Shown here in pieces: positions 24,132-42,044 of a stretch of 64,000 nucleotides of DNA; the stretch's first letter is position 1, and each line of letters begins with the position of its first letter. The notes under the pieces were generated by a model, which had not been told where the DNA came from, did not search any database, and saw only the letters and a program-made list of their open reading frames with translations. The stretch comes from Odoribacter splanchnicus DSM 20712 (GTDB lineage: Bacteria > Bacteroidota > Bacteroidia > Bacteroidales > Marinifilaceae), in contig NC_015160.1 of the NCBI RefSeq assembly GCF_000190535.1, forward strand, positions 3,968,001 to 4,032,000. The letters run 5' to 3'. Both the position numbers and the translations under genes were made by a program.

Positions 24132-24167
24132 AATCGAATTGTTTACTTCTCTCTTGTCATTATAAAA

Positions 24168-24632: not shown

Positions 24633-24647
24633 TCCTTCCTCCGATTT

Positions 24648-25352
24648 TTATAATAACCTGATCAGATAATAGAGGCCGGTGCCGGTGAATAACCAGCCGA
24701 CAATCCTTCGCATCCATCGTTCGAACACCTGTAGGCGATTGTAGAAACGTCCGATTCCTGCAATACTGTAGGCCAGCAGCCAGGCCACTACCGCTACCGG
24801 TAAAGCTGTGGCTACAGCAAAAACAACAGGAAACCACATCCCGCCTGTTGAGATCGCTGCCATCGGTATCAGCAGACCGAAGTAGAAAACCCCGCTTGTC
24901 GGACAGAAAGCCAAGGCAAATAATATACCCAATGTCAGACTACCTACACCACCTTTCAGGTTTTGCAGTTTTTCATTGTCTCCCGAAAAACCGAATTTCG
25001 GAAGATTCAACCGTTGACCCCATAGCATAAATCCACCGGTAAGCAATAGTAAAGGTGAAATAATCCATTTCCCCCACTGACTGATTCCTTTTTGTATGGC
25101 GAACATACTTGCTCCTTCCCGTAAAATGGGGATAACCAGCAGGCCCAGGACTGTATAGGTAATAATCCGCCCCAAGGTATAAAGTAACCCGTTTCGAAAA
25201 ATTCGTTTCCGGTTACCGATATCCCGGCTGATAAAACCGATAGCCGTTATATTTGTTGCTAAAGGGCAGGGGCTTATTGCGGTCAGTAAACCCAGTACGA
25301 AAGCTGTCGCGACAGGTAGACCGCTATTCATCAAAATGTCCGGAGATTCCAT
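24648..25352 (-). CDS. arsG: CcdA-like / ArsG-family membrane transporter
   Basis: The 234-residue polytopic protein belongs to the CcdA/DsbD-type family: about six membrane segments and paired Cys-Pro sites in AISPCPLATNITAIG (Cys29) and ALAFCPTSGVF. In Bacteroidetes the copy linked to arsR and ArsF-like thioredoxins is annotated ArsG (aromatic arsenical efflux). A simple electron-transfer role (moving reductant to the periplasm for the two thioredoxins beside it) is equally compatible. Adjacent genes are 3 and 15 bases away. Confidence 0.78.
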   Translation of the reverse strand: MESPDILMNSGLPVATAFVLGLLTAISPCPLATNITAIGFISRDIGNRKRIFRNGLLYTLGRIITYTVLGLLVIPILREGASMFAIQKGISQWGKWIISPLLLLTGGFMLWGQRLNLPKFGFSGDNEKLQNLKGGVGSLTLGILFALAFCPTSGVFYFGLLIPMAAISTGGMWFPVVFAVATALPVAVVAWLLAYSIAGIGRFYNRLQVFERWMRRIVGWLFTGTGLYYLIRLL

Positions 25353-25355
25353 TAT

Positions 25356-25787
25356 TTATTTCATCAATATTTCAATTTTTTCTTTCAATCCTGCTTTAAA
25401 TCCTTCGGGATCGCTTGTTGCCTTCGAAAAAGCAAATTCTGTCATATTGTTTCGCTGTTCCTGCCCATCTTTCCAGCGATTTACAAACAGAGATGACCAG
25501 GTGACTTCATACCGATCCGCTATTTTTTCTCCTTCTTTATCCGAAATATCTACTGTCCGGTATACGATCTGTCCGGTTTTCACTGCTTCTGCGAGACTTC
25601 CTGTCAGCAATTCTTTTGTCTGTGCCTCGATGCTTTTACAAGTCATACAACGTTGTTTCCCATGAAAATAAATTACCTCCACCCGGTCGCCGGTTACGGT
25701 TTGTTCCTGTAGCTGCAAGTTTCTGCTTTGCTTTTCTCTGCAGGCGGAGAATAGAGTCAATGTAATCAATAAAGTTGTGAGTCGCAT
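25356..25787 (-). CDS. arsF: ArsF-like thioredoxin-fold lipoprotein
   Basis: The 143-residue protein has a lipoprotein signal (lipobox LFSAC, Cys16) and a thioredoxin-like region with KQRCMTCKSIE (Cys47, Cys50). It resembles the ArsF family, described as a subunit of nitro-aromatic arsenical reduction, next to ArsG as in arsEFG-type operons. No ArsE is visible in the run. It lies six bases after the small thioredoxin gene. Confidence 0.75.
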   Translation of the reverse strand: MRLTTLLITLTLFSACREKQSRNLQLQEQTVTGDRVEVIYFHGKQRCMTCKSIEAQTKELLTGSLAEAVKTGQIVYRTVDISDKEGEKIADRYEVTWSSLFVNRWKDGQEQRNNMTEFAFSKATSDPEGFKAGLKEKIEILMK

Positions 25788-25793
25788 GGTCGT

Positions 25794-26027
25794 TTATTTT
25801 ACAAGTAACTTTTTAACCTCACTAACGGTCGGCTTTCGGCCGCTCGATACCACTTTACCGTCGATTACCAAGGCCGGCATGCTCATTACGTTATACTTCA
25901 TAATCTCGGTCAGTTCCTCTACTTTTACGACCTTCGCTTCAATACCGGTTTCCGATACAGCTTGTATTACTGCTGTATAAAGTGCTTTACAACTTGCACA
26001 GCCTGTTCCTAATACTTTAATTTCCAT
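25794..26027 (-). CDS. Small glutaredoxin-like thioredoxin (MTH895 type)
   Basis: This 77-residue cytoplasmic protein has GTGCASCKALY (Cys10, Cys13) and SMPALVIDGK, the features of the MTH895/TM0996 small redox proteins common in ars operons. It is the first structural gene after arsR, separated from it by an operator-like dyad. Confidence 0.85.
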   Translation of the reverse strand: MEIKVLGTGCASCKALYTAVIQAVSETGIEAKVVKVEELTEIMKYNVMSMPALVIDGKVVSSGRKPTVSEVKKLLVK

Positions 26028-26081
26028 CGTTTCAAAATATTAAATAGTGAATAATTCTCATCATACAAGATTCTTGTTATT

Positions 26082-26112
26082 ATTGTTTGTAATTCGTAGA
26101 ATTACGAACAAT
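26082..26112 (-). promoter_or_regulatory. ArsR-type operator dyad before the ars structural genes
   Basis: 14-base arms 26082-26095 and 26099-26112 (ATTGTTtGTAATTC / GAATTACGAACAAT) are complementary with one mismatch and a three-base centre. The half-site ATTGTTCG recurs upstream of arsR. Confidence 0.65.
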
Positions 26113-26137
26113 ATTCGCATAAAAAAGCCTGCTGTTT

Positions 26138-26461
26138 TCAGCAACAAGATTTTTTGTCTTTACAATGACAGAAAAAAACTGAAAATAATCGTTTGGCTTC
26201 CTCCCAATTGGTCCGGTTGATACAATATTTCACTTTCGGTGCCTCTATTTCTCCCTGTATCAATCCGGCTTCCTTTAATTCCTTCAAGTGTTGTGAAACC
26301 GTTGCTTTGGCTATCGGTAATTCTTCATGGATATCTCCGAAAAAGCAGGTTTCCCGTCCTGCCAGAAATTGCAGGATAGCCATTCGGGCCGGATGTCCCA
26401 TTGCTTTAGCGTAGCGGGCTATTCGTTCTTGTTCGTCTGTATAATCTTTAGTCTTCCCCAT
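26138..26461 (-). CDS. arsR: ArsR-family metalloregulator
   Basis: The 107-residue winged-helix repressor has the ArsR core ([17 protein letters not shown], then [18 protein letters not shown]). Candidate metal ligands are Cys39 in ETCFFGDI and the C-terminal [10 protein letters not shown] cluster; the cluster at the end is unusual and may form the arsenic site. It heads the operon and probably represses it and itself through dyads at 26082-26112 and 26473-26496. Confidence 0.9.
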
Positions 26462-26472
26462 AAATCAGTTTT

Positions 26473-26496
26473 ATTGTTCGCAAAGTTACGAACAAT
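26473..26496 (-). promoter_or_regulatory. arsR promoter overlapped by operator
   Basis: ATTGTTCG (26473-26480) and CGAACAAT (26489-26496) form a dyad. The minus-strand -7 box TAACTTTG (26481-26488) lies exactly between the arms, so bound ArsR would block its own promoter. Confidence 0.7.
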
Positions 26497-27279
26497 GTTT
26501 CAAACGACAAAATTCTGGCAGGAAATACTGTAGAAATCTCTGCCGGACATTTGAAACAGAAACTCTGATCAGGAAATCGTTCATATGCTTATTATTACCC
26601 CGAAATGCCGGTCTCATCCAGTCGTCCCGGTACTGTTTGGGAGTGATATCAAGGTATTAATTTCCCATTGTGAGTTGAAGTAAGCAATGGCTGTTACATT
26701 GTCGGCATTACGGTACCTTCCTGGTCCTGATATCGGGCCTGAATTGCTAAGATCTGCCCGGTTTTACGACATTGTAATCAGAGGGGGGGGCGATGGGATT
26801 GATCGGAGTGCCTTCAAAAGATGTTGTGGTGGACTGACGGGAAAGGAACATATGGTCGGTCCCATAAAACCAAAGTTGTATACCGGATAACATTATTATT
26901 TTGTTATAAGTATCTATTATTAGTTGATTATCAGTACTATACACTCTAAACGGTAGAAAAGTGACCGTATGGATTCTGATTAGATACAAAAAGGTGAATA
27001 TTTAACGTATTTAACTTTCGATCACATCAAGAATCACGGAATAAGGTTTGGGAGGGGGCGCTTTTAACTGACCACATAATGTGGTGAATGGAAGTTATAT
27101 GACGAAATTCATAAAGGGGTACGGTTGAAACGACTCCCTTGAACGTAGGGTGTGATTACATGTTAGCCCCTTTGTTCTAAAAAGCATTTTTATGTAGTTT
27201 ACGATGCTACGTTTTAGTGTTTTTTTACTTGATAACGCAGTTTTTTCATTGATTGTGCTGGCTTTTGGGATAAAACTAT
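26497..27279. other. Intergenic region with decayed coding traces
   Basis: About 780 bases with no supported gene. The minus strand between about 26520 and 26740 gives short protein-like runs broken by stops and shifts (for example YRNADNVTAIAYFNSQWEIN and QYRDDWMRPAFRGNNKHMND), suggesting an old pseudogene of unknown family. Confidence 0.3.
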
Positions 27280-27287
27280 TATCTTTG
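27280..27287 (+). promoter_or_regulatory. -7 promoter box for the AAA ATPase gene
   Basis: TATCTTTG, 43 bases before the ATG. Confidence 0.6.
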
Positions 27288-27329
27288 CGGTGTAAAATGT
27301 GATACCAGTATCAAAAACAATACTCTAAT

Positions 27330-28589
27330 ATGATATTTGAACGTAAGAAATACTTGGATGAACTTATTGCAGGACGTGGAAACGGTCTTGTGAAGATTAT
27401 AACAGGTGTCAGACGATGTGGAAAGTCTTTCCTGTTGTTTGATATCTGGCATAACTGGTTGTTGGAACATGGGGTGACTAATAGTCACATCATAGAAATA
27501 CAACTTGATGATTTCCGAAACAGACGGTTGAGAAAGCCTGATTCCTTGCTCGATTATATAGATTCAAAGGTTGTGGATGATGGCAATCCTTATTATATAG
27601 TCTTGGACGAGGTACAACTTGTAGAAGAATTTGTGGAGGTTATTCTTAGCTTGACACACATGCGGAATGTAGATGTGTATGTGTCAGGCTCAAACTCTCG
27701 TTTCCTGTCAAGTGATGTTGTGACTGAGTTTCGAGGCAGAGGTGACGAGATACGCATCTGGCCTCTCACCTTTGACGAGTACTTTAATGGTATTGGTGGC
27801 GATATACGCAAAGCTTGGTTGGATTACTATACTTTTGGAGGACTGCCACAGGTGGCTTTGCTTGAAACGGAAGAAAAGAAAACAGACTATTTGCGTGGTC
27901 TGTATGAAACGACCTATCTGCGTGACGTAATTGAGCGCAACCATCTGCGTAATCCTGAAGGAATGAAGGAATTGGTGCGTGTAATAGCCTCGGGCATTGG
28001 TTCATCAACCAATCCAACGAGAATAGCCAATACCTTTCAATCTTCACAAGGGGTAACCATAAAAAGAGACACTATAAAACAATACATTGACTATCTGAAA
28101 GACTCATTCTTGATAGAGGAAGCCTTGCGCTATGATGTGAAAGGCAGAAAATATATTGGTACCGAGACGAAATACTACTTCGCTGATGTCGGCATACGTG
28201 CAGCCATTCTCAACTATCGACAGCAGGAGGAAACACACATTATGGAAAACATTATCTATAATGAACTTCGCAGTCGAGGATATAATGTGGACGTAGGATT
28301 GGTTGAACTTGGTGGCAAGGATAAGAACGGTAAGTTTATCAGAAAACAGTTGGAGGTAGACTTTGTGGTGAACCGCCCTCCATACAGGGTCTATATCCAG
28401 TCGGCTTTCCACATGCCTACGCCAGAAAAGGAACAGCAAGAACGTCGCCCATTATTGTCAATCAATGACCACTTTCGTAAGATTGTCATTGTTGGTGATG
28501 ACATTCATCGCAAGGAGGACGAACTCGGTGTGTTGACTGTCGGACTCTTGGATTTCTTGACAGATAAGAACTTGTTGGAGCAAGGATAA
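27330..28589 (+). CDS. AAA ATPase with DUF4143 domain
   Basis: The 419-residue protein has Walker A GVRRCGKS (residues 26-33), Walker B IVLDEVQ (about 91-97), a sensor-like VSGSNSRFL, the arginine-finger region EFRGRGDEIRIWPL, and a C-terminal DUF4143 region ending in a PD-(D/E)xK-like LEVDFVVNR block. Such ATPases are very common in Bacteroidetes as scattered, variable single genes; a nucleotide-dependent role is clear but the process is not. Codon use (more AT-rich, fewer CGG) differs from the neighbours and suggests acquisition. Confidence 0.85.
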   Translation: MIFERKKYLDELIAGRGNGLVKIITGVRRCGKSFLLFDIWHNWLLEHGVTNSHIIEIQLDDFRNRRLRKPDSLLDYIDSKVVDDGNPYYIVLDEVQLVEEFVEVILSLTHMRNVDVYVSGSNSRFLSSDVVTEFRGRGDEIRIWPLTFDEYFNGIGGDIRKAWLDYYTFGGLPQVALLETEEKKTDYLRGLYETTYLRDVIERNHLRNPEGMKELVRVIASGIGSSTNPTRIANTFQSSQGVTIKRDTIKQYIDYLKDSFLIEEALRYDVKGRKYIGTETKYYFADVGIRAAILNYRQQEETHIMENIIYNELRSRGYNVDVGLVELGGKDKNGKFIRKQLEVDFVVNRPPYRVYIQSAFHMPTPEKEQQERRPLLSINDHFRKIVIVGDDIHRKEDELGVLTVGLLDFLTDKNLLEQG

Positions 28590-28763
28590 TCATTTTATTA
28601 TATAATCTCTTTCTCATGCAGGATTTCGGCAACTCCTGTCATCAGTAGTATCATGATCAGCGAACAGGCATACCTTCGGCGTTGAAGGGGATCGTTGAAT
28701 AATAATAAATGGTTGTCCGAATTGTCCTGGTACTTTAGAGGATTCATGCGATTGGCGCGTACA

Positions 28764-31241
28764 TTATTCCAAATCGTGTAATTTATAGTCTCCGGCTTTA
28801 TTCTGGATGACTTGTTGTAACTCGTTTAAAGAAAATTCTTTATCTGTGAATTCGATTGTCGCTTCCGGAGGATCGAGCGTTACGATTGCTTTTACACCGT
28901 CGATGCTGTTCAGTGCTTTTTCAACGTGTGCACGGCAATGACCACACATCATGCCGTCGATAGTAAATCTTTTTTTCATGACTTTTTTATTTATAGGTTC
29001 AACTTCTTCGATCCGTACCTCGTTCCCCCTCGGGATAAGGCTTATTTTTTTCCGTTTCAGCCGTAAACTATTGCTTACTACACTCACACTGCTGAATGCC
29101 ATAGCTGCTCCGCCGATCATTGGATTGAGCAGGAAACCGCAAACCGGATAAAGTATGCCTGCTGCAATAGGAATACTGACCAGGTTGTAAATAAAAGCCC
29201 AGAACAGATTTTGCCGGATGGTTTTCACCGTCAGCCGTGATAAACGGATCGTTTCCGGTATTTTCAGCAGGTCGGAGGAAAGGATGGTGACCATGGCGGT
29301 TTCCATGGCGATATCACTTCCTTTTCCCATAGCGATACTCAAATCTGCCTGTGCCAATGCTGCGCTATCGTTTATTCCGTCGCCGACCATCGCTACCCGG
29401 GCACCTTTTTGTTGCAATTGTTCGATAAAGATAGCTTTGTCGTGAGGAAGAACGCCCGACCGGTAATGGCCGATGTTTGCTTTTCGGGCTATAGCCTGTG
29501 CTGTACCGGCATTATCTCCGGTCAGCATGTAAACGGTCAGCCCCATTTTTTCCATCTGCCGGATGGCTTGCAATGAGGTCGGTTTTATCTCGTCGGTGAT
29601 CGCGATTATGGCCAGGGCCTGGGTCGAATGACCGAACCAGACGACTGTCTTGGCTTCTTTGAGCCAACTTTCGGCCCTTTGTTTTAAGGGTTCCGGGAGG
29701 ATGACGCCATTGTCTGTGAGTAATTCAGCGGTTCCGGCGTAATAGGTTTCATCGCCTGTCCGGCCTTTTATTCCTTTACCCGGTATCGTTTCGAATCCGG
29801 TGACCGGAATGGATGTTTCTTGTCCGAATTCCCTGACTATCGCTTCTGCCAGCGGATGTTCCGACAAACGTTCCAGACTGTATATTATTTTCCGGGCTTC
29901 CGTTGTTTCTGTATGCCAGTAAGTATTTACGACCCTTGGATGCCCTTCGGTTATCGTACCTGTTTTATCTAATACAATCGTATCGATTTTCCGGGCAATC
30001 TCCAGGCTTGTCGCATCTTTTATCAGAATGCCGTGTTCAGCTCCCTTTCCGATTCCTACGATGAGTGCTGTCGGAGTAGCCAGGCCCAGGGCACAGGGGC
30101 AGGCAATGATGAGGACGGTGATCATAGCCAGCAGACCGTGGGAAAAACCGGCAGTCGGTGCGAATAAACACCACAACCCGAAAGTCAACAAGGCTATACC
30201 GATGATAACGGGTACGAAAATACCGGCTATTTTATCTACCAGTTTCTGTACCGGGGCTTTACTTCCCTGGGCATCTTGCACCATGCGGATGATTTGAGCC
30301 AGCATGGTATCGGCCCCTGTTTTGTCGGCAGTGAAATGAAAAGCCCCTTTCTGATTCACCGTTCCGGCATATACCTTTTCGCCGGCTTGTTTGTGTACGG
30401 CTATAGGCTCACCGCTGAGCATGCTTTCATCGACGTATGAATCCCCGCTTATTACCGTCCCGTCAACAGCGATACGTTCTCCGGGTTTTACAGCTATCGT
30501 ATCTCCGATCCGGGCATTTTCGATCGGTACGGTTTGTTCGCCCGATCCGGTAACGATCGTAATTGTTTTGGGTTGCAGACCCGCTAGTCTACGGATAGCC
30601 GTTGAGGTGTTTTGTTTCGCCCGTTCTTCGAGTAAGCGGCCCAGAAGAATAAAAGCTATAATACCGCTTGCAGCCTCGAAATACAAATGGGGCGTTATCC
30701 CCCGCGATAACCAGAAATCCGGGAACAATAGATTGAATACACTGAATAGATAAGCGATACCGGTGCTGTTGGCAACCAGGGTATCCATATTGGAAGTACC
30801 GTGTTTCAATTGCTGCCAGGCACTGAGGTAGAATCTGTTTCCGAAACCTAAAACGACACAGGTCGAAAGGAACCATAAAACATAGTTCATGTAAGGAATA
30901 TTCACAAACACCATACTGATGACCATGATCGGTAGCGATAATAAAGTAGCCCCGAAGGTCTGAATTTTCAATAAACGGTATTTTTCGTTTTGTATTTGTT
31001 TGGCCTTCTCCTCGCCCTGTTGGTCTGTCTCGGTCAGCAGATCGTATCCTGCATCTTGCACCGCATTTTTCAAGGCCTGAACAGAACAGATCTCCGTATC
31101 GTAGACGACCTGGGCCTGGGCGGTTGCGTAGTTTATATTGGCTTCACATACACCGGGTTGTTCATGAATGACTTTATCTATTCTCGCTGCACAAGAGGCA
31201 CAACTCATTCCTACCACCGGAAAAGTTTTTTTTATTTTCAT
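28764..31241 (-). CDS. copA: Copper-exporting P1B-type ATPase with HMA domains at both ends
   Basis: The 825-residue protein pumps Cu+ out of the cytoplasm. In order: N-terminal HMA domain (GMSCASC, residues 11-17), membrane helices, an actuator with SGEP, the CPC ion site near 385 (ACPCALGLATP), phosphorylation motif DKTGT near 419, hinge GDGIND near 617, the last helices, then a linker and a second HMA domain with DGMMCGHC near 765. The C-terminal HMA, preceded by an internal Met after a charged linker, looks like a fused CopZ-type chaperone. It is downstream of an AraC-type sensor and has its own -7 box. Confidence 0.95.
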   Translation of the reverse strand: MKIKKTFPVVGMSCASCAARIDKVIHEQPGVCEANINYATAQAQVVYDTEICSVQALKNAVQDAGYDLLTETDQQGEEKAKQIQNEKYRLLKIQTFGATLLSLPIMVISMVFVNIPYMNYVLWFLSTCVVLGFGNRFYLSAWQQLKHGTSNMDTLVANSTGIAYLFSVFNLLFPDFWLSRGITPHLYFEAASGIIAFILLGRLLEERAKQNTSTAIRRLAGLQPKTITIVTGSGEQTVPIENARIGDTIAVKPGERIAVDGTVISGDSYVDESMLSGEPIAVHKQAGEKVYAGTVNQKGAFHFTADKTGADTMLAQIIRMVQDAQGSKAPVQKLVDKIAGIFVPVIIGIALLTFGLWCLFAPTAGFSHGLLAMITVLIIACPCALGLATPTALIVGIGKGAEHGILIKDATSLEIARKIDTIVLDKTGTITEGHPRVVNTYWHTETTEARKIIYSLERLSEHPLAEAIVREFGQETSIPVTGFETIPGKGIKGRTGDETYYAGTAELLTDNGVILPEPLKQRAESWLKEAKTVVWFGHSTQALAIIAITDEIKPTSLQAIRQMEKMGLTVYMLTGDNAGTAQAIARKANIGHYRSGVLPHDKAIFIEQLQQKGARVAMVGDGINDSAALAQADLSIAMGKGSDIAMETAMVTILSSDLLKIPETIRLSRLTVKTIRQNLFWAFIYNLVSIPIAAGILYPVCGFLLNPMIGGAAMAFSSVSVVSNSLRLKRKKISLIPRGNEVRIEEVEPINKKVMKKRFTIDGMMCGHCRAHVEKALNSIDGVKAIVTLDPPEATIEFTDKEFSLNELQQVIQNKAGDYKLHDLE

Positions 31242-31272
31242 ACGCTTAACCTTTATATGATCTCTTTCCGGA

Positions 31273-31280
31273 CAAAGATA
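31273..31280 (-). promoter_or_regulatory. -7 promoter box for copA
   Basis: Minus strand TATCTTTG followed by TCCGG, 31 bases before the copA ATG. The same TTTGTCCGG string follows the -7 box of the upstream araC gene. Confidence 0.6.
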
Positions 31281-31330
31281 AGGTATACCGGCCGATGTAC
31301 TGTTATAAAATTATGGATATGATTTATATC

Positions 31331-31906
31331 TTACACTTTATCCAAAGGGGAGCGTTTGTTGCCTTTCAGACGTTTAAATTCACTGGGAGACATTCCGGTT
31401 ACCTGCCGGAACTGGGAACTCAAATGAGCGACACTCGAATATTGAAGCTGTGTGGCTATTTCGCCGATCGTCAGCTCGTCGTAAATGAGTAATTCTTTGA
31501 TGCGTTCTACTTTTTGAGCAATATAGTATTTCTCTATGCTGATACCGTTTTCTTCGGAAAAAAGTTTACTTAGCAAACTGTAGTCGTAATGACATCTCCC
31601 GCTTAAATATTCGGATAATTTCAATTTAGAGAGATTATTTTCATAATGGACCAGTTCGATAATGGCAGTACGGATTTGTTCGATAAGACGATGGCGTTTA
31701 TCGTCGAGCAATTCGAACCCGAGCGCTTCAAGTGCTTTCCGGATCAGAAACCGGTCTGCCGGTTTCAACGGTTCTTCGATGACAACCTTACCCAATTCAA
31801 TCCGGAGTGGATTGAAATTCAGGTTTTTGAGCATTTCTGATACAACCAGAATACATCGGTTACAAACCATATTTTTTATAAAAAGAACGTGCTCTTGTTC
31901 TTCCAT
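31331..31906 (-). CDS. AraC-type regulator with HMA-like metal-sensing domain
   Basis: The 191-residue protein has an N-terminal ferredoxin-like region (about 7-75) with IKNMVCNRC (Cys15, Cys18), the same M-x-C-x2-C layout as heavy-metal-associated domains, and a C-terminal AraC DNA-binding domain (ELTIGEIATQLQYSSVAHLS then FRQVTGMSPSEFKRL). The copper ATPase gene follows on the same strand, so it is very likely a copper-responsive activator. The ATG at 31906 is chosen because upstream in-frame codons to 32101 cross the promoter box at 31965-31972. Confidence 0.85.
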   Translation of the reverse strand: MEEQEHVLFIKNMVCNRCILVVSEMLKNLNFNPLRIELGKVVIEEPLKPADRFLIRKALEALGFELLDDKRHRLIEQIRTAIIELVHYENNLSKLKLSEYLSGRCHYDYSLLSKLFSEENGISIEKYYIAQKVERIKELLIYDELTIGEIATQLQYSSVAHLSSQFRQVTGMSPSEFKRLKGNKRSPLDKV

Positions 31907-31964
31907 CGTGATTATTATTAAGCGTTTGCTTTGCCACTCTGCACTTTCACAGCAATGTCCCGGA

Positions 31965-31972
31965 CAAAAATA
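31965..31972 (-). promoter_or_regulatory. -7 promoter box for the AraC-type regulator
   Basis: Minus strand TATTTTTG, 59 bases before the chosen ATG, followed by TCCGGGAC. Confidence 0.55.
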
Positions 31973-32199
31973 GGGATTATTTCGGTGGCTTTGCATGATG
32001 AAGTTATTAAAAATATTCCGGGCTAATTCCTTAAATAATCTTGTATTATTGATAAGAATGTTTATTTGGGGAATAATAAGATCAATCTTTCTATTGTTCA
32101 CATGATTCCCTTGCTCCGGAACAGGGGAAAAATAGCTAATTGTAGCTATATAGCTATCGTCGGGAGTTTTGTATTTTTATCCCCACAAAATAAACTCTT

Positions 32200-33377: not shown

Positions 33378-33628
33378 GTGGCAAAGATAATAGATAAATC
33401 GATTCCTTATTGTTTACTAAGCATTTTGGGGGTAAAGTGATTGATAGTAGAGTTGGTGTTGGAATATACATTGGTTTTACTTATAAAGCAAGCAATAATT
33501 GGTAGGGTTGTAATTAGCTGAAGTATCTTATTTGACTATCGACGAATAAGATCAAATTTAGGTGTTTATATACATGTTTATCCTAAATGTATATTTATAA
33601 GTGTAAATATGTATATAACTGTTTTAAT

Positions 33629-34710
33629 AAAAATAATCGTCTATGGGAACGGTACAGCCAAGACAATCTTAAAAACGGATAGAGTTATTCAGTAGAATAT
33701 TTTTGTGGCTCAAATCGTCTAAAACGACAGTCGGTAATTATAGGATAACTCATTCCTAACAGGTATATTTGTAACAATCAAAAGCCGGGTGATATGACAA
33801 AACAGAATGCAATCAAAGTCTTCGAAGAAAAGAAAGTCCGTACCGTATGGGACAGTGACAAAGAGGAATGGTATTTCTCAATAGTAGATGTGATAGCGGT
33901 ATTAACTGATAGTCCTAATCCAAGGAAGTATTGGAGTGTGTTAAAAACTCGTCTAAAAAAGAGGGAAGTGAGTTGACTACAAATTGTAGTCAACTGAAAA
34001 TGCCCTCATCTGACGGTAAGTATTATAAGACAGATGTTGCTGATACCGAGCAATTGTTTCGGTTGATACAATCCATACCCTCTCCTAAAGCAGAACCTTT
34101 CAAGTTGTGGATGGCACAAGTAGCTAAGGAACGACTTGACCAAATGCAAGACCCGGAACTGTCTATTCAGCAGGCTATGATGGATTACAAACGGTTGGGA
34201 TATTCCGACAACTGGATTAATCAACGGCTCAAAAGTATAGAAATCCGTAAGGACTTAACGGATGAATGGAAACGGCATGGATTACAGGAGGGTGTACAGT
34301 TTGCTACTCTAACAGATATCATCTATAAGACCTGGGCAGGAAAAACGGCTAAGGAATATAAACAGTTCAAAGGGTTGAAGAAAGAGAATCTACGGGACAA
34401 CATGACTAATAAGGAACTGGTATTGAATATGCTTGCAGAACTTTCTACAAAGGAAATATCAGAGGTACAAAACCCGGAATCTTTTGATGAGCATATAGAT
34501 GTTGCTAAACAAGGTTGAACAATTGCCCTTAATGCAAGATTAGAATTAGAAAAGAAAACCGGAAAATCTGTTGTAACTCCTCTCAATGCAAAAGATGTGT
34601 TGGGATTACAAAGCGGAGAAGTGGAAGATGTGGATTTGGACAGTGAAGAATCAAAATAGGAGTGATAGTACAAAGAAACATACTAAGGGAGCCGTAAATG
34701 GTTCCCTTTT
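33629..34710 (+). repeat. 1.07-kb duplicated block, left copy (Bro-N region)
   Basis: Closely similar to 40733-41806, covering a leader (CGTCTATGGGAACGGTACAG and onward), a promoter with TATATTTG, and the Bro-N gene to just past its stop. The copies differ by scattered substitutions and small indels, denser in the variable middle of the gene. Confidence 0.85.
33794..34659 (+). pseudogene. Bro-N domain protein, frameshift plus nonsense mutation
   Basis: Aligned with the intact copy at 40897-41772 this gene has one extra A in an A-run near 33957 (CGTCTAAAAAAGAG) that ends the first frame at 33974. It also has a TGA near 34516 where the intact copy has a Gly codon (KQGst against RKGGSIA). The downstream frame then continues to NAKDVLGLQSGEVED and the same C-terminus. 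Conserved pieces include DKEEWYFSIVDVI and QLFRLIQSIPSPKAEPFKLW. It belongs to a degraded mobile element on the left of the intact one. Confidence 0.9.
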
Positions 34711-35591
34711 TTATATATACCTGTCTAAAAGAAAAATAAGTTGTGAAATAGAACCGTATAGGGATTATACCTCATCATGTCGGTGTATTTATTCCCTAAT
34801 AAATATCTTGTCTTATAGAGCGTAATAGAAGAATAAAAGTGATGAGGTATATTTGTGGCTTCGATAATGAAAATATTCTATCCCGTAAAAGAATGAGTAT
34901 GGGGTGTATAACACATAAGTGATGATACCATCAAGTGATGAGGTAGATGATAAGTATAGAATAATAATGAAGATAGATAATTGTAATAAGATGTATTGTA
35001 TTTAAAATCAGTTATATAAAAGGATGGCCGATGTTGGCATATTGGCGGACAGTCTGGTAAATGATTGCCTGCCGATAGAATTTTATGGGTATCTGTTCCA
35101 TGACTTTTAAATTTGCATCGCGAAAATATCCCTTGTCAATGTCAGAATCTGTTATCCTGTATGAAGAAATTTGTTAACGGAAAACGTGGGTAATTTCTTG
35201 TTTGCCGTTGAGGTCTTCGATTACCTATGCTACATAACAAAAACGCCCACGTATTTCTACCTGAGTCGTTGCTTATTGTGTCGTAGCATGTTAAAAGTGT
35301 CGAAGTTCCAACTGCACCATAATAAGGCAAACGCTTTGACAATATGTTGTTCCTTATTTTAAGGGCTTTATATCTACATATCTATATTTGTTTTTTGGGT
35401 TACTGCCGACAGATATAGCGAAATAGGAAATAACATCCGATAAATAGGTAGATATTCTACTATGATGGGGAAATGTAAATATATTTATAGTTTTATAATT
35501 GATTGAACGATATAATACCAAATGAATTTAGTATTGCCATTAGTATCTGATGCATTAAGTTTCCCAAAAACCTTAATAAAACCTTAATCGC
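34711..35591. other. AT-rich degenerate region of the left element
   Basis: About 880 bases with no supported gene. From about 35516 the sequence again parallels the right end of the intact element (ACCAAATGAATTTAGTATTG compare 41846 onward). The intervening 34711-35515 is absent from the right copy. Confidence 0.4.
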
Positions 35592-35682
35592 CACAATAAA
35601 AAAGAGGTCGGGCTTTTGGTCTAACCTCTTGATTTTCAGTAGTCGGGATGACAGGATTTGAACCTGCGACAACACGCCCCCC
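35592..35682. repeat. Attachment-type direct repeat, left copy, with partial tRNA-Pro
   Basis: 91 bases match 41920-42010 with about three differences. The last 40 (35643-35682) are the 3' half of tRNA-Pro(GGG) on the minus strand, from the discriminator base through the T-arm and variable loop to the anticodon loop. Beyond 35682 the tRNA homology stops, as expected for an att site formed by a tRNA-targeting integrase. Confidence 0.85.
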
Positions 35683-36096
35683 CAGCTGTTGAAAGATAGA
35701 TTGTATTTATTCGTATCAGATTATATATCTGTGTGTTGTATTTGTATCCACTTACCTTAATTTTCCTCCTATTGGTATTAAGTTAGATGAAAACTGTAAT
35801 CAAAATGTAATCGAAATTTAGGAAGGGATAAAAAGAAACCTTAAAGGTCAGATTTGTGATATGTATAATTTTGTTACACGTATAAAGATATAAAAAGTTT
35901 TATGGAATATGTCGGAAAAATATTCTTAAAAAAGATTTTCATCTGGAATATATAATAATCAAACACTTATACGAGAAAAACTAATATTTTCATTGTTGAT
36001 TCCTTGCAAGCCAGTAATTTTATTTATCCATTGAGAACTGGATAAAACTTCCGTTCGTAGAATATAGAAAGAAGTATAATTTAAAATAAAATTATT
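35683..36096. other. Integrase-proximal end of the element
   Basis: AT-rich leader of the integrase gene. The short near-repeats TTGTATTTATTCGTATC (about 35700) and TTGTATTTGTATCC (about 35738) could be integrase arm-binding sites. A GTAATCAAAATGTAATCG string near 35800 also occurs near the other end (about 41900). No gene is seen. Confidence 0.4.
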
Positions 36097-36921
36097 ATGG
36101 CAAAATTTGGTGTGCTGATTTATAAAAGCAATCAGAAAAAAGACGGGAGTTTTCCTGTGTGTTTAAGAATCACGAAAGACGGAAAAAGAAAGTACATTGA
36201 TTTAGGATTAACTGCTAAAGAAGACCAATGGAATGAAGAAACTGCCCGGTTTAAAAAGGATAAGCGTGTAAATCCTAACCATGAAAAATATAATACTTTA
36301 CTTAACCATTACGAAGAAAGAAAAGATGTCATACTAAGAAAGTTTGCTGAAAATCGGATAGATTGGACATTAAATCAATTTGAAGAAGAATTTTTAGGTG
36401 TATCTAAACGAGGTAAAGTATATGATTACTTTCTAAAGCAAATCGATATTTTGAAAGCGACAAATCATATCGGAAATGCAAAAGCGTATGAAAGAACGCT
36501 TCATGTGTTAGGGAAATATGATAAGAAAATAAAAGAACGCTTATTCCCTGAAGTTGATATTAAATATGTAAATGCTTTTAACGTTGCTTTGGAAAAAGAC
36601 AACTGTTGTGGTAATACACGAAAATATTATTTGAAAACACTGAGAGCCCTACTAAATAAGGCAATTAAAGAAAAAGAAGCCTCCCCAACGACTTATCCAT
36701 TTGGTAGTGGTGGGTTTGAAATAAACAGTTTGGAAGAAGAAACTCGCAAGAGATACCTATTATCAGAGGATTTGGCACTTTTAAAAGATACTCCACAAGA
36801 TAATTACACATTGGAATATACCCGGCGGTTATTTTTGTTTTCGTATCACTGCTTTGGAGTCAGCTTTATAGATATGGCAACTTTTACAAGTCAAAATATA
36901 GAAAGGCTGGAAACAGGAGAA

Positions 36922-36932
36922 TATATTGTCCA
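36922..36932. repeat. IS4 target duplication, left copy
   Basis: TATATTGTCCA; its partner at 38399-38409 is TATATTGTCTA. The first nine bases are identical and the tenth differs (C/T). The right copy matches the restored integrase frame. Confidence 0.7.
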
Positions 36933-38398
36933 ATAGTTCGTTAAAAATTCGCCAAGCCTAAGCGGCTCTGGCAGTAAATAAAATGAGTTCTTTGAAAAAT
37001 TTGTCAATAACTTGCATGTCTGGGTTAATCCCAAACACGCAAATAAATCGTTCAAGCATATACGCATTGTGTATGAATGACTTGCAAGAGGATATGGAAT
37101 AGGCTATTCCGAGCCTCTTACATGCCGCTTCGGTCAAGTTGACAGCAGCAAGCGATGCATTGAAGTGAAAATCCAACTTTCTGAAGTCAGTTGACTGACA
37201 GTTGGTAATTCCAGCATGCTGCTTTCCATCTCTAAAGCAAAATTCCAATTGGAACCTGGTTCTGTAATAATCCAGGACTTCGCGTCCATCCATGGAATCA
37301 TCTGTAGAGAAATAAAGCTGCCACTTGTCTGTCCTCCCGTCCATCGGATACCGGACGGCCAAGGAAACATACCTTTTGAGAGCTTTTGCATATACCCTCA
37401 ATCCGTATAGTTTTCCCTTGTTCACCTCGTATTCCTTGCACCGGGTCAGATCCAGATTGGCAAAGTCAATCCTGCCGTCAAACCACTTGGGATGACCACG
37501 TTTTCCTGTTTTCTTTTCCAATGTCGGATAGTACAGGACTACGTCGTTCCTAAAGCGGCTGATGACATGGAAATCACTCTCACACATAGGCGTTATGAAA
37601 GTTTCCTTGGAAAAGAATGCGTCTGCAACCACCGTTCCGGATATGCTCTGTAGCTTGTCTTTTCTACTGATAAGATAGCTGCTATACCAGTCAACCAGGT
37701 TCTTACCCATATTATCCAAGGTCTTACAGTCCGGTGTCTGAATGGAACCTAAAGTCATGCATTCATGGTTGTCGATGTCAATGACACCGATGCCCATGAT
37801 TTCTAATCCTCGCTTATAATCCCCGGCACAGCCTGACCAGAAGTAACCGATCCAAGGTGTCTTATGACCGGACTTGGGGATATAGGAAGGATCGATGGCG
37901 ATGGCTTTTCTTTTGCCTGTGAGATGCTTGCCGATGATAGAGGCGTTGAACGCAAACCAGTCGAAAGTTTCATTTTCAAAAAGGTTACGGTAGGTCTGTT
38001 CCGAAAAACATCCATACCTGCCCAATTGGAGGAAGTTTATACGATCCGGGATGGCCATGAATAATTTCATGGTGTCCATGAACGTTTTTTCAAAAGGTTT
38101 GTGTATATTCACGACTGATTTGAGAGCCGACAGGCACTCGGATTGGTATTGCATAAGGAGTGTTTCTTTAGCCATAATTAGATGAGTAGTTAACTTCTAA
38201 TTTACTAAAAAATCAACGAATTATGCAATACTTTTCACCTTTGTTATCAGCAGGTTAGCCCATTTTTTCAGCACATTTCTTCATGCTTAACCATTCGTTT
38301 TTGACAACATATCAATGACCTCTTTAATGTTTTCGAACCGACTTTTGCCGGTTCTATTGTTTAACTTTTAATTTTTCGGTAAAAATTTACCGAAGTAT
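36933..38398 (-). mobile_element. IS4-family insertion sequence, 1,466 bp
   Basis: Ends are imperfect inverted repeats (ATAGTTCGTTAAA at 36933 and the complement, ATACTTCGGTAAA, at 38398). An 11-base target duplication, typical of IS4/IS231-type elements, flanks it. One transposase on the minus strand; the 220 bases upstream of it to the right end are non-coding. Confidence 0.85.
36958..38175 (-). CDS. IS4-family transposase
   Basis: The 405-residue DDE transposase shows the first Asp in AIAIDPSYIPKSG, the second in VVADAFFSKETF, and the exact IS4 signature Y-x2-R-x3-E-x6-K in YRTRFQLEFCFRDGK. The frame is complete. It inserted opposite to the integrase gene it disrupts, so transcription of the 3' half of the integrase could only come from element-internal read-through. 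Confidence 0.93.
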   Translation of the reverse strand: MAKETLLMQYQSECLSALKSVVNIHKPFEKTFMDTMKLFMAIPDRINFLQLGRYGCFSEQTYRNLFENETFDWFAFNASIIGKHLTGKRKAIAIDPSYIPKSGHKTPWIGYFWSGCAGDYKRGLEIMGIGVIDIDNHECMTLGSIQTPDCKTLDNMGKNLVDWYSSYLISRKDKLQSISGTVVADAFFSKETFITPMCESDFHVISRFRNDVVLYYPTLEKKTGKRGHPKWFDGRIDFANLDLTRCKEYEVNKGKLYGLRVYAKALKRYVSLAVRYPMDGRTDKWQLYFSTDDSMDGREVLDYYRTRFQLEFCFRDGKQHAGITNCQSTDFRKLDFHFNASLAAVNLTEAACKRLGIAYSISSCKSFIHNAYMLERFICVFGINPDMQVIDKFFKELILFTARAA

Positions 38399-38409
38399 TA
38401 TATTGTCTA
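38399..38409. repeat. IS4 target duplication, right copy
   Basis: TATATTGTCTA, partner of 36922-36932. Confidence 0.7.
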
Positions 38410-38829
38410 TAAAAGACAGAAAATAAAAAACCAAAGAGGAGTAAAGGCAATAAAAATTCCCGTGACAGAAACAATAAAAGAACTATTGGATTGGTTTAAA
38501 ATGAATACACCTCTTGTTGGGAATTATCTTGTCCCCGTAATAACTAAAGATTACAGCGGAGAACAGCTATACAATCATATCCGGTCAAGATATGTGCGTT
38601 ATGCTAAAAATTTAAAGAAATTGGGCGAAACATTAGAAATTGAGCGTCTTCGCTTAACGAGTTATGTGAGTCGTCATACAATGGCTATGACTTTACAAAA
38701 TCAAAACGTACCCCGGGAACAAATTAGCCAAGCACTGGGACATAATAACCTTACAACTACCAATGTTTATCTGGATAGCTTTGATACAAACATAATGGAT
38801 AAAGTAGCACAATTACTCTAAAATACTCT

Positions 38830-39378
38830 ATGAATTATGACTTAAATATGCCTTTGAGCGACTTAGTAGCTAAGTTGCTCCAAGGGGAAGCAGACGAATT
38901 GCATGAAGAAGATTTACATGCCTATATGGATAATTTAACTCATGGAGATAAAAAAGGACTCCAACAAGCGTTGAAAGAAGTGGAAAAATCCATTGTGGAG
39001 TGGAAAGATACCTACTTTGTTGAAACATATGCTGATAAAGTAAGATTGTATCAGCAGGGAAAGTTAAAGTGGACACAACGGGAATTGGATGACTTATTCT
39101 ATGAGGAAGAATTTTTGAGGAAAGAAGGTAAAACAGGTTTGACTGTTGATTATCTATATAACGCTATTGAAAAGATAGGCTTCATTAATGAACTTCATGG
39201 TGATGCCATTGAATGTGCCTGGCAGAACAACGATATTGAATTTCTGAGGACACAATGGGAAGATTTGGCTTTAGATCAAATTAGAGCGTTACAGGCAATA
39301 ATTAACGGAATGCTTAGAGTTACCCTACTAAATCAAGTAACGAGGTACAGAGCGCCAATAGACCCGAAAAACAGTTGA
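38830..39378 (+). CDS. Unknown acidic element protein
   Basis: The 182-residue protein is acidic and helical (LLQGEADELHEEDLHAYMDN near 17, then a KKGLQQALKEVEKSIVEWKD helix). It has no signal peptide or membrane segment, and I recognise no family. It starts eight bases after the integrase stop and overlaps the HTH gene in a TTGA junction, so int, this gene, the HTH gene and rep form one operon. A role in element maintenance is inferred only from position. Confidence 0.7.
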   Translation: MNYDLNMPLSDLVAKLLQGEADELHEEDLHAYMDNLTHGDKKGLQQALKEVEKSIVEWKDTYFVETYADKVRLYQQGKLKWTQRELDDLFYEEEFLRKEGKTGLTVDYLYNAIEKIGFINELHGDAIECAWQNNDIEFLRTQWEDLALDQIRALQAIINGMLRVTLLNQVTRYRAPIDPKNS

Positions 39379-39653
39379 AAGACTACCCGGAAGTATTTGG
39401 GATAGATGTATGCTGTAAAATAACAGGGTATAAAAAGAACACGATATATAAATTGATAGCTAAAAATAAGATACCACATTTTCGCCCCGGTAATAATGGA
39501 CGAAAACTAATGTTCCGACGGGAAGAAATATTGGCGTGGATGATAGCCCGGCGACGGGAAACAACAGAGGAATTTATAAACAGCATGGATGTGCGGTTGG
39601 CGGCTCGAAATAAATCTAATTCTATAATAACCCAAAAAAGTTCAAAAAAATGA
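39375..39653 (+). CDS. Helix-turn-helix excisionase-like protein
   Basis: The 92-residue protein carries a MerR/HTH_17-type domain (CCKITGYKKNTIYKLIAKNK then IPHFRPGNNGRKLMFRREEI), the usual form of excisionases and plasmid regulators in Bacteroidetes elements. The only start that keeps the whole domain is a TTG overlapping the previous stop (TTGA), so translation is probably coupled. It overlaps the rep ATG in the same way (ATGA). Confidence 0.82.
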   Translation: MKDYPEVFGIDVCCKITGYKKNTIYKLIAKNKIPHFRPGNNGRKLMFRREEILAWMIARRRETTEEFINSMDVRLAARNKSNSIITQKSSKK

Positions 39654-40573
39654 TCGATACAATCTGGTTAATACTTCATCACTCAACTGTCAACTACAAA
39701 ATTGACTTCATGGCTGAGGTTGGTGCTAAAATCAATGTTGATATCAAACGTAGTAATGAGTACCGTATAGTTGGCTCACTCCAAAATATGCAAATCTATA
39801 TTGAACCGACCTTTGTCCTTATCCAAGGCAGTCTTCCTAAATATTATTACGGAAGTAATTTAGTATCACTGCCACGTACAGAGTTAAGTAATGCTATTGA
39901 TAAATTGAGTACCGACCTTGGTTTACCTTTACGAGAGGCTATTATTACACGCATAGACATCGGGATGAATGTCGAAGTGGATAATCCTCCTCGAAGTTAT
40001 TTTTCCTATTTTGGTATATTAAAGAAGTTTGAGCGTAATATTCGTAGAAACTCACTATATTATGAGCAAAAATGGTGTCAACTTTGCTTTTATGACAAGG
40101 TAAAGGAGGCTAAGGCTCATAAAGACCCTTTATTAACCTCTGAAATGTTGGACAAAAACATCCTCCGGTACGAAATCAGGTATAAACATAGTTGGTTGAA
40201 ACACTATTTCAAACGGAATATAAAGGCAAAGGAACTATTTGCAAAAGACCCTATTGTGTATCTTGATTTGATTGCTGAATGGTATCTTAAATATGATGAC
40301 ATTATTAAGATTGACATCATGAAACCTAAGTTTGAAATGACATTAATGGGTTTGTTACGTTGGGAATTAAAAGATAGAAGCAGGAAGCAAGATATATTAA
40401 AAATAATTGATTCATTTAGTGAGAAAGGAGATAGGAAAGCTGCAAGATTGAAGAGGGTGGTAACTAAAATGCTTAATGAGGATAAAGGAATAGAAGAAAA
40501 TATGATTCGGGAATTTAATGATAAGATTACAGAATGTACCGAAGTACATTGGGATTCTATTTTGAACGAGTAG
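39650..40573 (+). CDS. Replication initiation protein, gene II/X-like
   Basis: The 307-residue protein begins MIDTIWLILHHS and contains ELSNAIDKLSTDLGL followed by AIITRIDIGMNVEVD (about residues 78-115). It then has a YEQKWCQLCFYDKVKEAKAH segment and KNILRYEIRYKHSW, the pattern of filamentous-phage gene II/X and related rolling-circle plasmid initiators. Nearby pT181-type Rep_trans proteins share the TRID motif, so the exact class is open. It should nick the element origin; a perfect stem-loop lies 83 bases after its stop. Confidence 0.65.
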   Translation: MIDTIWLILHHSTVNYKIDFMAEVGAKINVDIKRSNEYRIVGSLQNMQIYIEPTFVLIQGSLPKYYYGSNLVSLPRTELSNAIDKLSTDLGLPLREAIITRIDIGMNVEVDNPPRSYFSYFGILKKFERNIRRNSLYYEQKWCQLCFYDKVKEAKAHKDPLLTSEMLDKNILRYEIRYKHSWLKHYFKRNIKAKELFAKDPIVYLDLIAEWYLKYDDIIKIDIMKPKFEMTLMGLLRWELKDRSRKQDILKIIDSFSEKGDRKAARLKRVVTKMLNEDKGIEENMIREFNDKITECTEVHWDSILNE

Positions 40574-40656
40574 GGAAGATTAAATGTGGTGTAATATAAA
40601 TAGACGTATTTAAAGATATGATTCCTTATAGAGTTTATTTGAGAATTCGACCTGAC

Positions 40657-40716
40657 AATAATTGAAAGGGTAGAAAGCCGAACGCTGCCACGTCGTCCCT
40701 TACCCTTTCAATTATT
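40657..40716. other. Large perfect stem-loop after rep, candidate replication origin
   Basis: AATAATTGAAAGGGTA (40657-40672) and TACCCTTTCAATTATT (40701-40716) form a perfect 16-bp stem (longer with one mismatch) around a GC-rich 28-base loop. Lack of a T-tract and the GC-rich loop fit a rolling-circle origin better than a terminator, but both remain possible. Confidence 0.5.
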
Positions 40717-40866
40717 ATCAAATCGAATTAATAAAAACAGTCGTCTATTGGAACGGTACAGCCAAGGCAATCTTAAAAACGGATAAAGTATTCAGTAGAA
40801 TATTTTGGTGGCTCAAATCGTCTAAAACGACAGTCGGTAATTATAGGATAACTCATTCCTAACAGG

Positions 40867-40874
40867 TATATTTG
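40867..40874 (+). promoter_or_regulatory. -7 promoter box for the Bro-N gene
   Basis: TATATTTG, 23 bases before the ATG and conserved in the left copy (33766-33773). Confidence 0.6.
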
Positions 40875-40896
40875 TAACAATCAAAAGCAGAATGAT

Positions 40897-41772
40897 ATGA
40901 CAAAGCAGAATGCAATAAAAGTCTTTGAGGAAAAGAAAGTCCGTACCGTATGGGACAGCGACAAAGAGGAATGGTATTTCTCTATTGTAGATGTTATTGA
41001 GATATTGACAGAACAACCCAATCATCAAGGTGCAAGAAATTATTGGAAAGTACTGAAAAACAGGATGTCCAAAGAGGGAAATGAAACGGTTACAAATTGT
41101 AACCGTTTGAAATTACCTGCTGAAGATGGCAAAATGCGTTTGACGGATGTTGCTGATACAGAACAATTATTCCGATTGATACAATCCATACCCTCTCCTA
41201 AAGCTGAACCTTTCAAATTGTGGATGGCACAGGTAGCTAAGGAACGGCTTGACCGAATGCAGGACCCGGAATTGTCTATTCAGCAGGCAATGCTGGACTA
41301 TAAACGGCTGGGATATTCCGACAACTGGATTAATCAACGGCTCAAAAGTATAGAAATCCGTAAGGACTTAACGGATGAATGGAAACGGCATGGATTACAG
41401 GAGGGTGTACAGTTTGCTACTCTAACAGATATTATCTATAAGACGTGGGCAGGAAAGACAGCTAAGGAATATAAACAGTTCAAAGGGTTGAAGAAAGAGA
41501 ATCTACGGGACAATATGACTAATACCGAATTGGTGTTGAATATGCTTGCAGAGCTGTCTACTAAGAAAATATCAGAAGCACAAAACCCGGAATCATTCAA
41601 TGAGCACATGGAGGTTGCGCGTAAAGGAGGGAGTATTGCCAAGGATGCCCGTCTAAAATTAGAGCAAGAAACAGGAGAAAAGGTCGTTACTCCTCTCAAT
41701 GCAAAAGATGTGTTGGGATTACAAAGTGGAGAAGTGGAAGATGTGGATTTGGACAGTGAAGAATCAAAGTAG
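40897..41772 (+). CDS. Bro-N domain (antirepressor-like) protein
   Basis: The 291-residue protein has an N-terminal Bro-N domain (VRTVWDSDKEEWYFSIVDVI, residues 15-34, then YWKVLKNRM). A long conserved region follows (DVADTEQLFRLIQSIPSPKA, INQRLKSIEIRKDLTDEWKR, KGLKKENLRDNMTN). Similar proteins are annotated as phage antirepressors or as DinD-like DNA-damage-inducible proteins. In this element it lies next to the tRNA end, under its own promoter. The frame is complete, unlike the left copy. Confidence 0.85.
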   Translation: MTKQNAIKVFEEKKVRTVWDSDKEEWYFSIVDVIEILTEQPNHQGARNYWKVLKNRMSKEGNETVTNCNRLKLPAEDGKMRLTDVADTEQLFRLIQSIPSPKAEPFKLWMAQVAKERLDRMQDPELSIQQAMLDYKRLGYSDNWINQRLKSIEIRKDLTDEWKRHGLQEGVQFATLTDIIYKTWAGKTAKEYKQFKGLKKENLRDNMTNTELVLNMLAELSTKKISEAQNPESFNEHMEVARKGGSIAKDARLKLEQETGEKVVTPLNAKDVLGLQSGEVEDVDLDSEESK

Positions 41773-41919
41773 GAGTGATAGTACAAAGAAACATACTAAA
41801 GGAGCCGTAAACTGCATGAATCCGGGGTGTCATGCGAATAAATACCAAATGAATTTAATATTACGATTGGTATCTGTTTGCATTAAGTTTCCCGAAAAGT
41901 GTAATCAAAATGTAATCGT

Positions 41920-42010
41920 CACAATAAAAAAGAGGTCGGACTTTTGGTCTAACCTCTTGATAATCAGTAGTCGGGATGACAGGATTTGAACCTGCGACAA
42001 CACGCCCCCC
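41920..42010. repeat. Attachment-type direct repeat, right copy
   Basis: Partner of 35592-35682. Bases 41971-42010 belong to the intact tRNA-Pro(GGG); 41920-41970 carry the tRNA terminator, which is therefore also repeated. Confidence 0.85.
41925..41958 (-). terminator. Terminator of tRNA-Pro(GGG)
   Basis: On the minus strand AAGAGGT (41952-41958 complement) pairs with ACCTCTT (41930-41936 complement) and is followed by a T-tract. A copy accompanies the partial tRNA at 35592-35640. Confidence 0.65.
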
Positions 42011-42044
42011 AGACGTGTACTCTACCGGGCTGAGCTACATCCCG
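41971..42044 (-). tRNA. tRNA-Pro (anticodon GGG), integration target
   Basis: On the minus strand: acceptor CGGGATG/CATCCCG fully paired, D-arm GCTC, anticodon stem CACGT/GCGTG with loop CTGGGGG (anticodon GGG), T-arm GCAGG-TTCAAAT-CCTGT, discriminator A. The 3' half is repeated at 35643-35682. Confidence 0.92.

Follow-up and report, generated by a model that had tools for sequence, protein, structure and literature searches.

The integrative and mobilizable elements (IMEs) of streptococci frequently depend on proteins related to the initiators of rolling-circle replication (RCR): according to the excerpts cited here, 118 of 144 such elements encode RCR-related relaxases, 21 of them putative relaxases of the PHA00330 type (PMC5704250, PMC5357655), and 83 of these 118 encode the coupling protein TcpA (PMC5357655). 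IME_oriT is described, in the section cited, as transferring with its own Rep_trans relaxase (PMC7563843). In the corresponding part of a review, the Bacteroidetes IMEs that are named carry MobP relaxases and the relaxases related to RCR initiators are described for Firmicute IMEs (PMC5704250). The present analysis concerns a 64-kb stretch, hereafter the window, of the 4,392,288-bp single-contig genome of Odoribacter splanchnicus DSM 20712. With good confidence, this window contains two related integrative elements that were inserted successively at the anticodon core of a tRNA-Pro(GGG) gene and that represent an IME-like integrative rolling-circle replicon, probably mobilized by a helper.

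The boundaries of the elements are defined by a directly repeated attachment (att) sequence consisting of the 3' half of the tRNA-Pro gene and its terminator. This 91-bp repeat had been named in the original prediction and both copies were recovered, matching at 88/91 bases, with uninterrupted identity over 20, 21 and 47 bp at a constant offset of 6328 bp. A 29-bp probe from the repeat gave two matches in the 64 kb against 0.00 expected. The relevant features are as follows.

35592-35682: att copy 1, terminator and tRNA-Pro 3' half, within the right end of the outer element
41920-42010: att copy 2, terminator and tRNA-Pro 3' half, reaching to the anticodon core CCCCCC
41970-42044, minus strand: intact tRNA-Pro(GGG), the target gene (ARAGORN; Rfam RF00005, 59.7 bits)

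The repeat terminates at the anticodon core, and a single, intact tRNA-Pro(GGG) was called by ARAGORN. An ordinary tandem array of tRNA genes, the possibility on which the original prediction would have foundered, was rejected on these grounds, the repeat being half a gene. The empty-site arrangement was also observed in congeners, as all four stretches containing this tRNA (L111, L112, L118 and L119) have tRNA-Pro(GGG) with one 3' half; two further congener stretches without tRNA-Pro(GGG), L120 and L121, were left out of the count.

The inner element lies between the two att cores and comprises the following features.

35683-42010, plus strand: inner element between att cores, 6328 bp (the repeat offset) including a 1468-bp insertion sequence (IS)
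36097-36936, plus strand: N-terminal part of the integrase with arm-binding and SAM-like domains, interrupted by the IS (PF13102, 5.1e-14; PF17293, 5.4e-13)
36931-38398, minus strand: IS with an IS701/IS4-like transposase at 36958-38175 (NF049999 IS701, 9.6e-24, under the curated cut-off)
38408-38821, plus strand: catalytic C-terminal part of the integrase (PF00589, 4.1e-9); listed open reading frame (ORF) from 38462
38830-39378, plus strand: N-terminal part of a regulator, first frame, joined to the helix-turn-helix (HTH) part in relatives P0059 and P0060 (274 amino acids, aa) and L005 (275 aa)
39375-39653, plus strand: HTH_17/excisionase-type part of the regulator, second frame (PF12728, 3.7e-11; TIGR01764 excise, 6.7e-8)
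39650-40573, plus strand: Rep, a PF05144 rolling-circle initiator with a predicted Rep_trans-like fold and most of its motifs
40645-40728: long 84-bp hairpin downstream of Rep and candidate double-strand origin (z -5.5 when 40590-40780 is folded as DNA)
40897-41772, plus strand: Bro-N protein, open frame, cargo (PF02498, 4.1e-13; phrog_15286, 2.9e-116; PDC-S13, 8.9e-136)

The order integrase, regulator, Rep, hairpin and Bro-N agrees with the cassette originally described, as does its length of about 4.85 kb without the IS (6328 bp less 1468 bp and one 9-bp target repeat), given before as about 4.9 kb. That its "unknown" and "HTH" ORFs are two separate genes was not borne out. Close relatives encode a single regulator of 261-275 aa, and P0059 and P0060 (207 and 147 member sequences) are identical to the first part of the window regulator over 91% in one frame, so the window copy represents one gene frameshifted near 39330; the only other database protein ending like this first part is P0061 (182 aa, one member). 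The IS is flanked by a 9-bp target repeat, TATATTGTC, at 36922-36930 and 38399-38407, and the integrase that it interrupts is one unbroken ORF of 415-447 aa in relatives L005, L093, L094 and L097. The inner element is thus decayed rather than intact in layout as first proposed, its integrase split by the IS and its regulator by a frameshift, and for this reason the window copy is probably unable to move by itself. The Rep and Bro-N frames remain open. Alongside the direct repeats and the IS-broken tyrosine integrase no conjugation apparatus was found when the ORFs of at least 80 aa in 35683-42010 were listed and the six main ORFs and the transposase were scanned, which supports the proposal that the element is non-conjugative and has both a tyrosine integrase and a rolling-circle-type Rep.

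Immediately to the left, a second element is represented by its right end only, from 33624 to 35682, everything left of the position of the hairpin having been lost.

33624-34706, plus strand: Bro-N block of the outer remnant, Bro-N broken (85.9% identical to its inner counterpart across 1085 bp; homology from 33624)
34707-35513: non-coding stretch of the outer remnant, not in the inner copy (71% to L094 across 138 bp and 78.5% to L097 across 107 bp)
35514-35682: right end of the outer element with att copy 1 (89.4% to its inner counterpart over the last 170 bp before att)

The 1.07-kb Bro-N block said to precede each repeat is therefore duplicated, both over its own length and over the last 170 bp, and the outer Bro-N is disrupted by a frame break and one TGA. 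Short parts of the intervening 0.8 kb resemble non-coding DNA of related elements. The copies are not recent duplicates, since they differ by 14% and the outer one carries this extra DNA. Because no third att was found in the 64-kb window (29 bp, up to 3 mismatches) and the outer Bro-N is broken, the outer element is taken to lack an integrase/Rep half here. These data support the suggestion that two related elements integrated in turn at a single tRNA and that the outer of them is reduced. Elsewhere, a Bro-N remnant lies directly left of the outer att of L094, in another genus, a weak trace of the Bro-N C-terminus (35 aa, 51%, E 2.7e-4) left of the left att of L093 at 4782-4886 is perhaps another outer remnant, and in L145 a distance of about 15 kb separates two integrases of this lineage, one of which adjoins a tRNA-Pro 3' half. 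Stacking of elements at tRNA-Pro thus seems to recur. As a separate observation, the outer remnant begins (33624) within a few bases of the position equivalent to the hairpin end (40728), which might stem from a break related to Rep or favoured by the palindrome, or be fortuitous.

The ordered proteins were sought in other Bacteroidales, and the same layout was found with att repeats of its own. With a profile that includes distant Reps the Rep family was detected in 24/393 sampled Bacteroidales genomes; it was also detected in 8/56 genomes of the window's own family, in 11/123 of another family and in 1/8 within the genus. A scan of a collection of genome contigs with the single Rep sequence gave one locus only. 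Nine integrase and Rep elements, the window included, have the tRNA-Pro(GGG) anticodon core at both ends, the others being L005 (Bacteroides oleiciplenus), L049/L116, L093/L114, L094, L097, L104, L105 and L107. Their sizes, taken from repeat spacing, are approximately 6.3-9.1 kb except for L049 (approximately 26 kb) and L093 (approximately 33 kb). Pairs of att sites include the following.

L005: 4332-4378 and 10951-10997
L105: 4872-4938 and 11280-11346
L049: 7393, with L116 14566
L107: 6389-6476 and 15506-15593

The att geometry varies within one integrase family, the repeat being the tRNA 3' half in some elements and the 5' half in L005, L105 and L049, and the core of L107 is inverted relative to the integrase; all elements break at the same anticodon core. 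An Rfam Parabacteroides-1 RNA (RF03088, 122 bits) was also observed inside one tRNA-Pro element (L104 13089-13193, minus strand). Further Rep loci, examined in less depth, neighbour different tRNA genes (Met, Leu, Ala, Arg, Phe and others), and short att-like repeats accompany some of these loci. No description of this element family was found in the open PMC literature, where absence is weak evidence, and its portrayal as little described is to that extent supported.

The Rep protein has a predicted Rep_trans-like (pT181-type) fold. The Rep_trans motif set is given, in the part of the source cited, as D, RxD, T/SxY/ExG, YxKxxE and W/LxRxE (PMC5714925). In the window protein D3, R101xD103 and Y148xK150xxE153 are present, together with R173xE175 preceded by Ile in place of W/L; across 33 sequences R101, D103, Y148, K150, R173 and E175 are invariant and D3 and E153 nearly so. 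The hairpin that follows the gene was present in all four elements with this class of Rep (window, L005, L094 and L093). In their alignment 90.2% of 92 cells pair, compared with 21-49% after sliding of the partners; for six pairs, one or more rows lack pairing and there is no other change. An Rfam hit to "MIR8643" at this position (37 bits, cut-off 135) was set aside as a chance match from a palindrome.

The relationship between Rep and hairpin is illustrated by L094 and L097, which share 96.3% DNA identity over 2.5 kb spanning att, integrase and regulator. Beyond this shared DNA, L097 carries a Rep of another class (8738-9733, minus strand) beside the near-identical integrase and regulator, the hairpin is gone, and homology to L094 resumes downstream at 82-89%. 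As judged from sequence comparison this pair is a natural exchange of a replication module. As Rep and the hairpin region were replaced jointly between elements otherwise 96% identical, the hairpin is probably the origin cognate to this Rep; it tracks Rep and not the integrase, the behaviour that a cognate origin should show.

The integrase lineage was also found with other engines. With the intact L094 integrase as query, matches were obtained in 12/123 and 4/56 genomes (E <= 1e-60), and several of these relatives had no match to this Rep within the stretch fetched. In L144 tRNA-Pro cores lie on both sides of an integrase, HTH_17, DUF5906, a Toprim_2 primase and a Mob_Pre relaxase. In L141 the integrase is accompanied by a PF03432 relaxase and a primase, no att being found in the 8.9-kb contig, and in L143 and L148 the integrase adjoins tRNA-Pro half repeats. 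One integrase lineage and one site thus appear to serve an ordinary mobilization module and Rep-hairpin modules alike, and it is mainly for this reason that the elements are read as IME-like.

Under the IME-like reading the tyrosine integrase and the AlpA/Xis-like regulator would recombine the element attP with the tRNA gene, the element supplying a new 3' half and terminator so that the tRNA would stay whole and would still be a target for the next element. After excision as a circle, the Rep_trans-like PF05144 initiator would nick the hairpin just 3' of its own gene, and this nicking would drive RCR. By analogy with non-canonical relaxases, the same Rep may let a co-resident conjugative element carry a single strand to a new cell.

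Several observations weigh against this reading. The window element has no recognized canonical relaxase, coupling protein or oriT; its Rep_trans-like Rep could be the stand-in for a relaxase. Motif II of Rep is partial only (S135xY137) and is not kept in all distant rows, PF02486 was unmatched with PF05144 being the only Pfam assignment (E <= 0.05), and a profile search of PDB sequences with Rep gave no relevant match. Among 72,556 plasmid records the sole match is weak and distant, and lies on a 277-kb plasmid. Covariation in the hairpin is modest, the three double-changed pairs in four sequences being reached by 13/500 shuffles. The hairpin was not seen beside Reps of the other class. At 11 loci with other-class Reps near-perfect arms after Rep were 12 bp at most, in a search that missed an imperfect rod, and a rod-like structure starts 63-75 nucleotides (nt) after Rep in all four of the other-class tRNA-Pro elements L049, L104, L105 and L107, so that in elements of this kind the origin may be the rod or something else. 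L049 and L093 may be composites. The tRNA-side copy of L093 (L114 247-300) has five Cs rather than six in the core and no tRNA-Pro was called there by ARAGORN, owing to either a sequencing error or a damaged tRNA-Pro. Finally, the distal att of the outer element is absent from the window and for that reason its full extent is unproven.

Of the alternatives, the one that survives best, though it is unlikely, is an integrated plasmid-like replicon that spreads as a plasmid or passively only, with a Rep that has no role in mobilization. The fold and motifs of Rep are of plasmid-initiator type, the hairpin fits a pT181-like double-strand origin and no mob gene was recognized. However, apart from the one distant match, close Reps are absent from the plasmid records, an IME-like element with a related integrase occupies this site, and a Rep_trans protein is the relaxase in other IMEs, according to the section cited (PMC7563843).

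The PDC-S13 hidden Markov model of PADLOC, whose candidates are predictions, covers residues 1-280 of the 291 of the window Bro-N protein, and "PDC-S13" is not mentioned in the open PMC literature searched. Bro-N had been named in the original prediction together with the integrase and Rep, but it does not define the family: it is cargo in only 2/9 tRNA-Pro elements (window and L093) and occurs as the remnant beside a third, L094. Other elements carry Abi_2/AbiD and a C5 methyltransferase (L049), Vsr, HerA and a SIR2_2 domain (L093), a HigB-like toxin (L005), T5orf172 (L104 and L105, the latter PADLOC PDC-S57), ADP-ribosylglycohydrolase (L105 and L107) and MuF_C (L107); several other scanned cargo ORFs were unmatched (two in L094 and one each in L097 and L104). 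Judging by these gene contents, cargo appears to be exchangeable and often defence-related. Relatives of Bro-N also occur on four human-faecal "phage" scaffolds, all of them linear, unannotated records in which Rep has no match. One of these, L037, encodes a Phage_min_cap2 protein; on another, L035, Bro-N adjoins a type III restriction enzyme, indicating that Bro-N is not a phage-only gene. Set against each other, these two scaffolds establish nothing firm about the window element, and a phage link by this route was discarded.

The original prediction had allowed for a phage-satellite family. Under this reading a helper phage would excise and package the small elements, and Bro-N would be their phage-like regulator. 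A size of approximately 5-9 kb, the tRNA site, the integrase with an AlpA-like regulator, a Rep in the PF05144 family of filamentous-phage G2P, and a Bro-N that matches a PHROG and has the faecal relatives described above would all suit such an element. This account is nevertheless improbable, given that no terminase, capsid, packaging or other phage hallmark gene was recognized in the window element and that conjugation-type mobilization genes accompany the integrase relative found at this site. Furthermore, Rep was not found among the 50,697 phage records of INPHARED (tblastn) and neither Rep nor the hairpin was matched in pattern-based scans of IMG/VR (two for Rep), and the faecal scaffolds themselves are of the unannotated, Rep-less kind noted above. 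Least probable of all is a single element with a segmental duplication of its right end, which would account for the right end alone being repeated without a third att but not for the 14% divergence over 1085 bp, the extra and partly element-like 0.8 kb, or the att-proximal Bro-N remnant in another genus (L094) that repeated insertion predicts.

A second structured sequence was observed in the course of these comparisons. A rod-like block of approximately 150-200 nt lies between Rep and the cargo in 8/9 tRNA-Pro elements, all but the window; it hugs Rep instead in L049, L104, L105 and L107. Copies include the following, those in the present genome being on G000:C1.

L094 11416-11562
L097 7912-8061, minus strand
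L005 8573-8722
L093 11680-11840
present genome 2424619-2424768
present genome 4186066-4186210
present genome 3647876-3648024
present genome 86694-86841
present genome 70591-70735

A covariance model of the rod matched many copies outside tRNA-Pro elements, including these five, with matches (E <= 1) in 18 of the 56 loci given, the weakest being L099 at 0.034, and in 23/56 family genomes at up to 32 per genome. Covariation was strong, 47/55 pairs being double-changed and none of 500 shuffles as high, in an alignment that was fitted to the structure and in which 3/21 rows cover the same places in antisense. A start codon was found 62-92 nt past the rod end in 23/35 copies compared with 9% at random positions. 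This spacing was seen in 16/18 of the best genome-wide matches (20 were fetched, L156 and L163 being dropped at contig ends) but in only 7/17 from element loci (L099 dropped). The rod had no Rfam match at gathering scores, and only a chance-level one below; an 18-base leader pattern had no match in IMG/VR, and no description of the rod leader was found in the open PMC literature, itself weak evidence. From its sequence context, the rod looks like an undescribed structured 5' leader that in most places precedes exported-protein and cargo genes. Left of the elements, 23163-32101 contains what, from its ORFs, we take to be a metal transport and regulation-like cluster (a P-type ATPase-like protein of 825 aa, a permease-like and an ArsR-like protein), and an AAA_14/DUF4143 ATPase is encoded at 27330-28589.

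A broader and more tentative proposal, on which opinion leans slightly to the negative, is that integrative rolling-circle replicons occur Bacteroidales-wide, that a cassette of Rep and its cognate hairpin origin is swapped among elements sharing the integrase and the tRNA-Pro site, and that a plasmid/phage-type initiator has supplanted the relaxase and primase known from ordinary IMEs and carries defence genes through gut Bacteroidales. If the Bacteroidales elements work like Firmicute IMEs, standard relaxase searches would miss small defence-carrying gut elements. The L094/L097 pair, in which the integrase is shared while Rep and the origin region have been exchanged, allows a direct test of the origin, and the tRNA-Pro(GGG) anticodon is a predictable place for finding cargo as well as an example of serial stacking.

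Compared with known systems, as far as the excerpts cited describe them, the window element resembles the canonical Bacteroidales IMEs (NBU1, NBU2 and others; PMC5704250) in its tyrosine integrase at a tRNA gene, whereas those encode a Mob relaxase where the window element has Rep and a hairpin. Like actinomycete integrative and conjugative elements (AICEs) such as pSAM2 (PMC3218068), it is integrative and combines Int with an RCR Rep; AICEs, in contrast, carry an FtsK/SpoIIIE-type transfer protein, a domain not found in the window element, and their RepSA belongs to another initiator family (PMC3218068). The Charybdis elements were set aside, having archaeal hosts and no known replication gene in the account cited (PMC12324425). 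Identity to the pT181-family initiators (RepDE 4cwe/4cwc; 4cij from Geobacillus) is 12-14%, Rep belonging to PF05144 and not PF02486, and the window element is integrated and not a free plasmid. From the streptococcal, and thus Firmicute, IMEs it differs in its Bacteroidales hosts, its PF05144 Reps, its use of the tRNA-Pro anticodon core and the lack of a recognized coupling protein. With the non-canonical members of that group (Rel_PHA00330, MobT/Rep_trans; PMC5357655, PMC5704250, PMC7168690, PMC7563843) it shares small size, a tyrosine integrase, insertion sites that are frequently tRNA genes, and the substitution of an RCR-initiator-type protein for a canonical relaxase.

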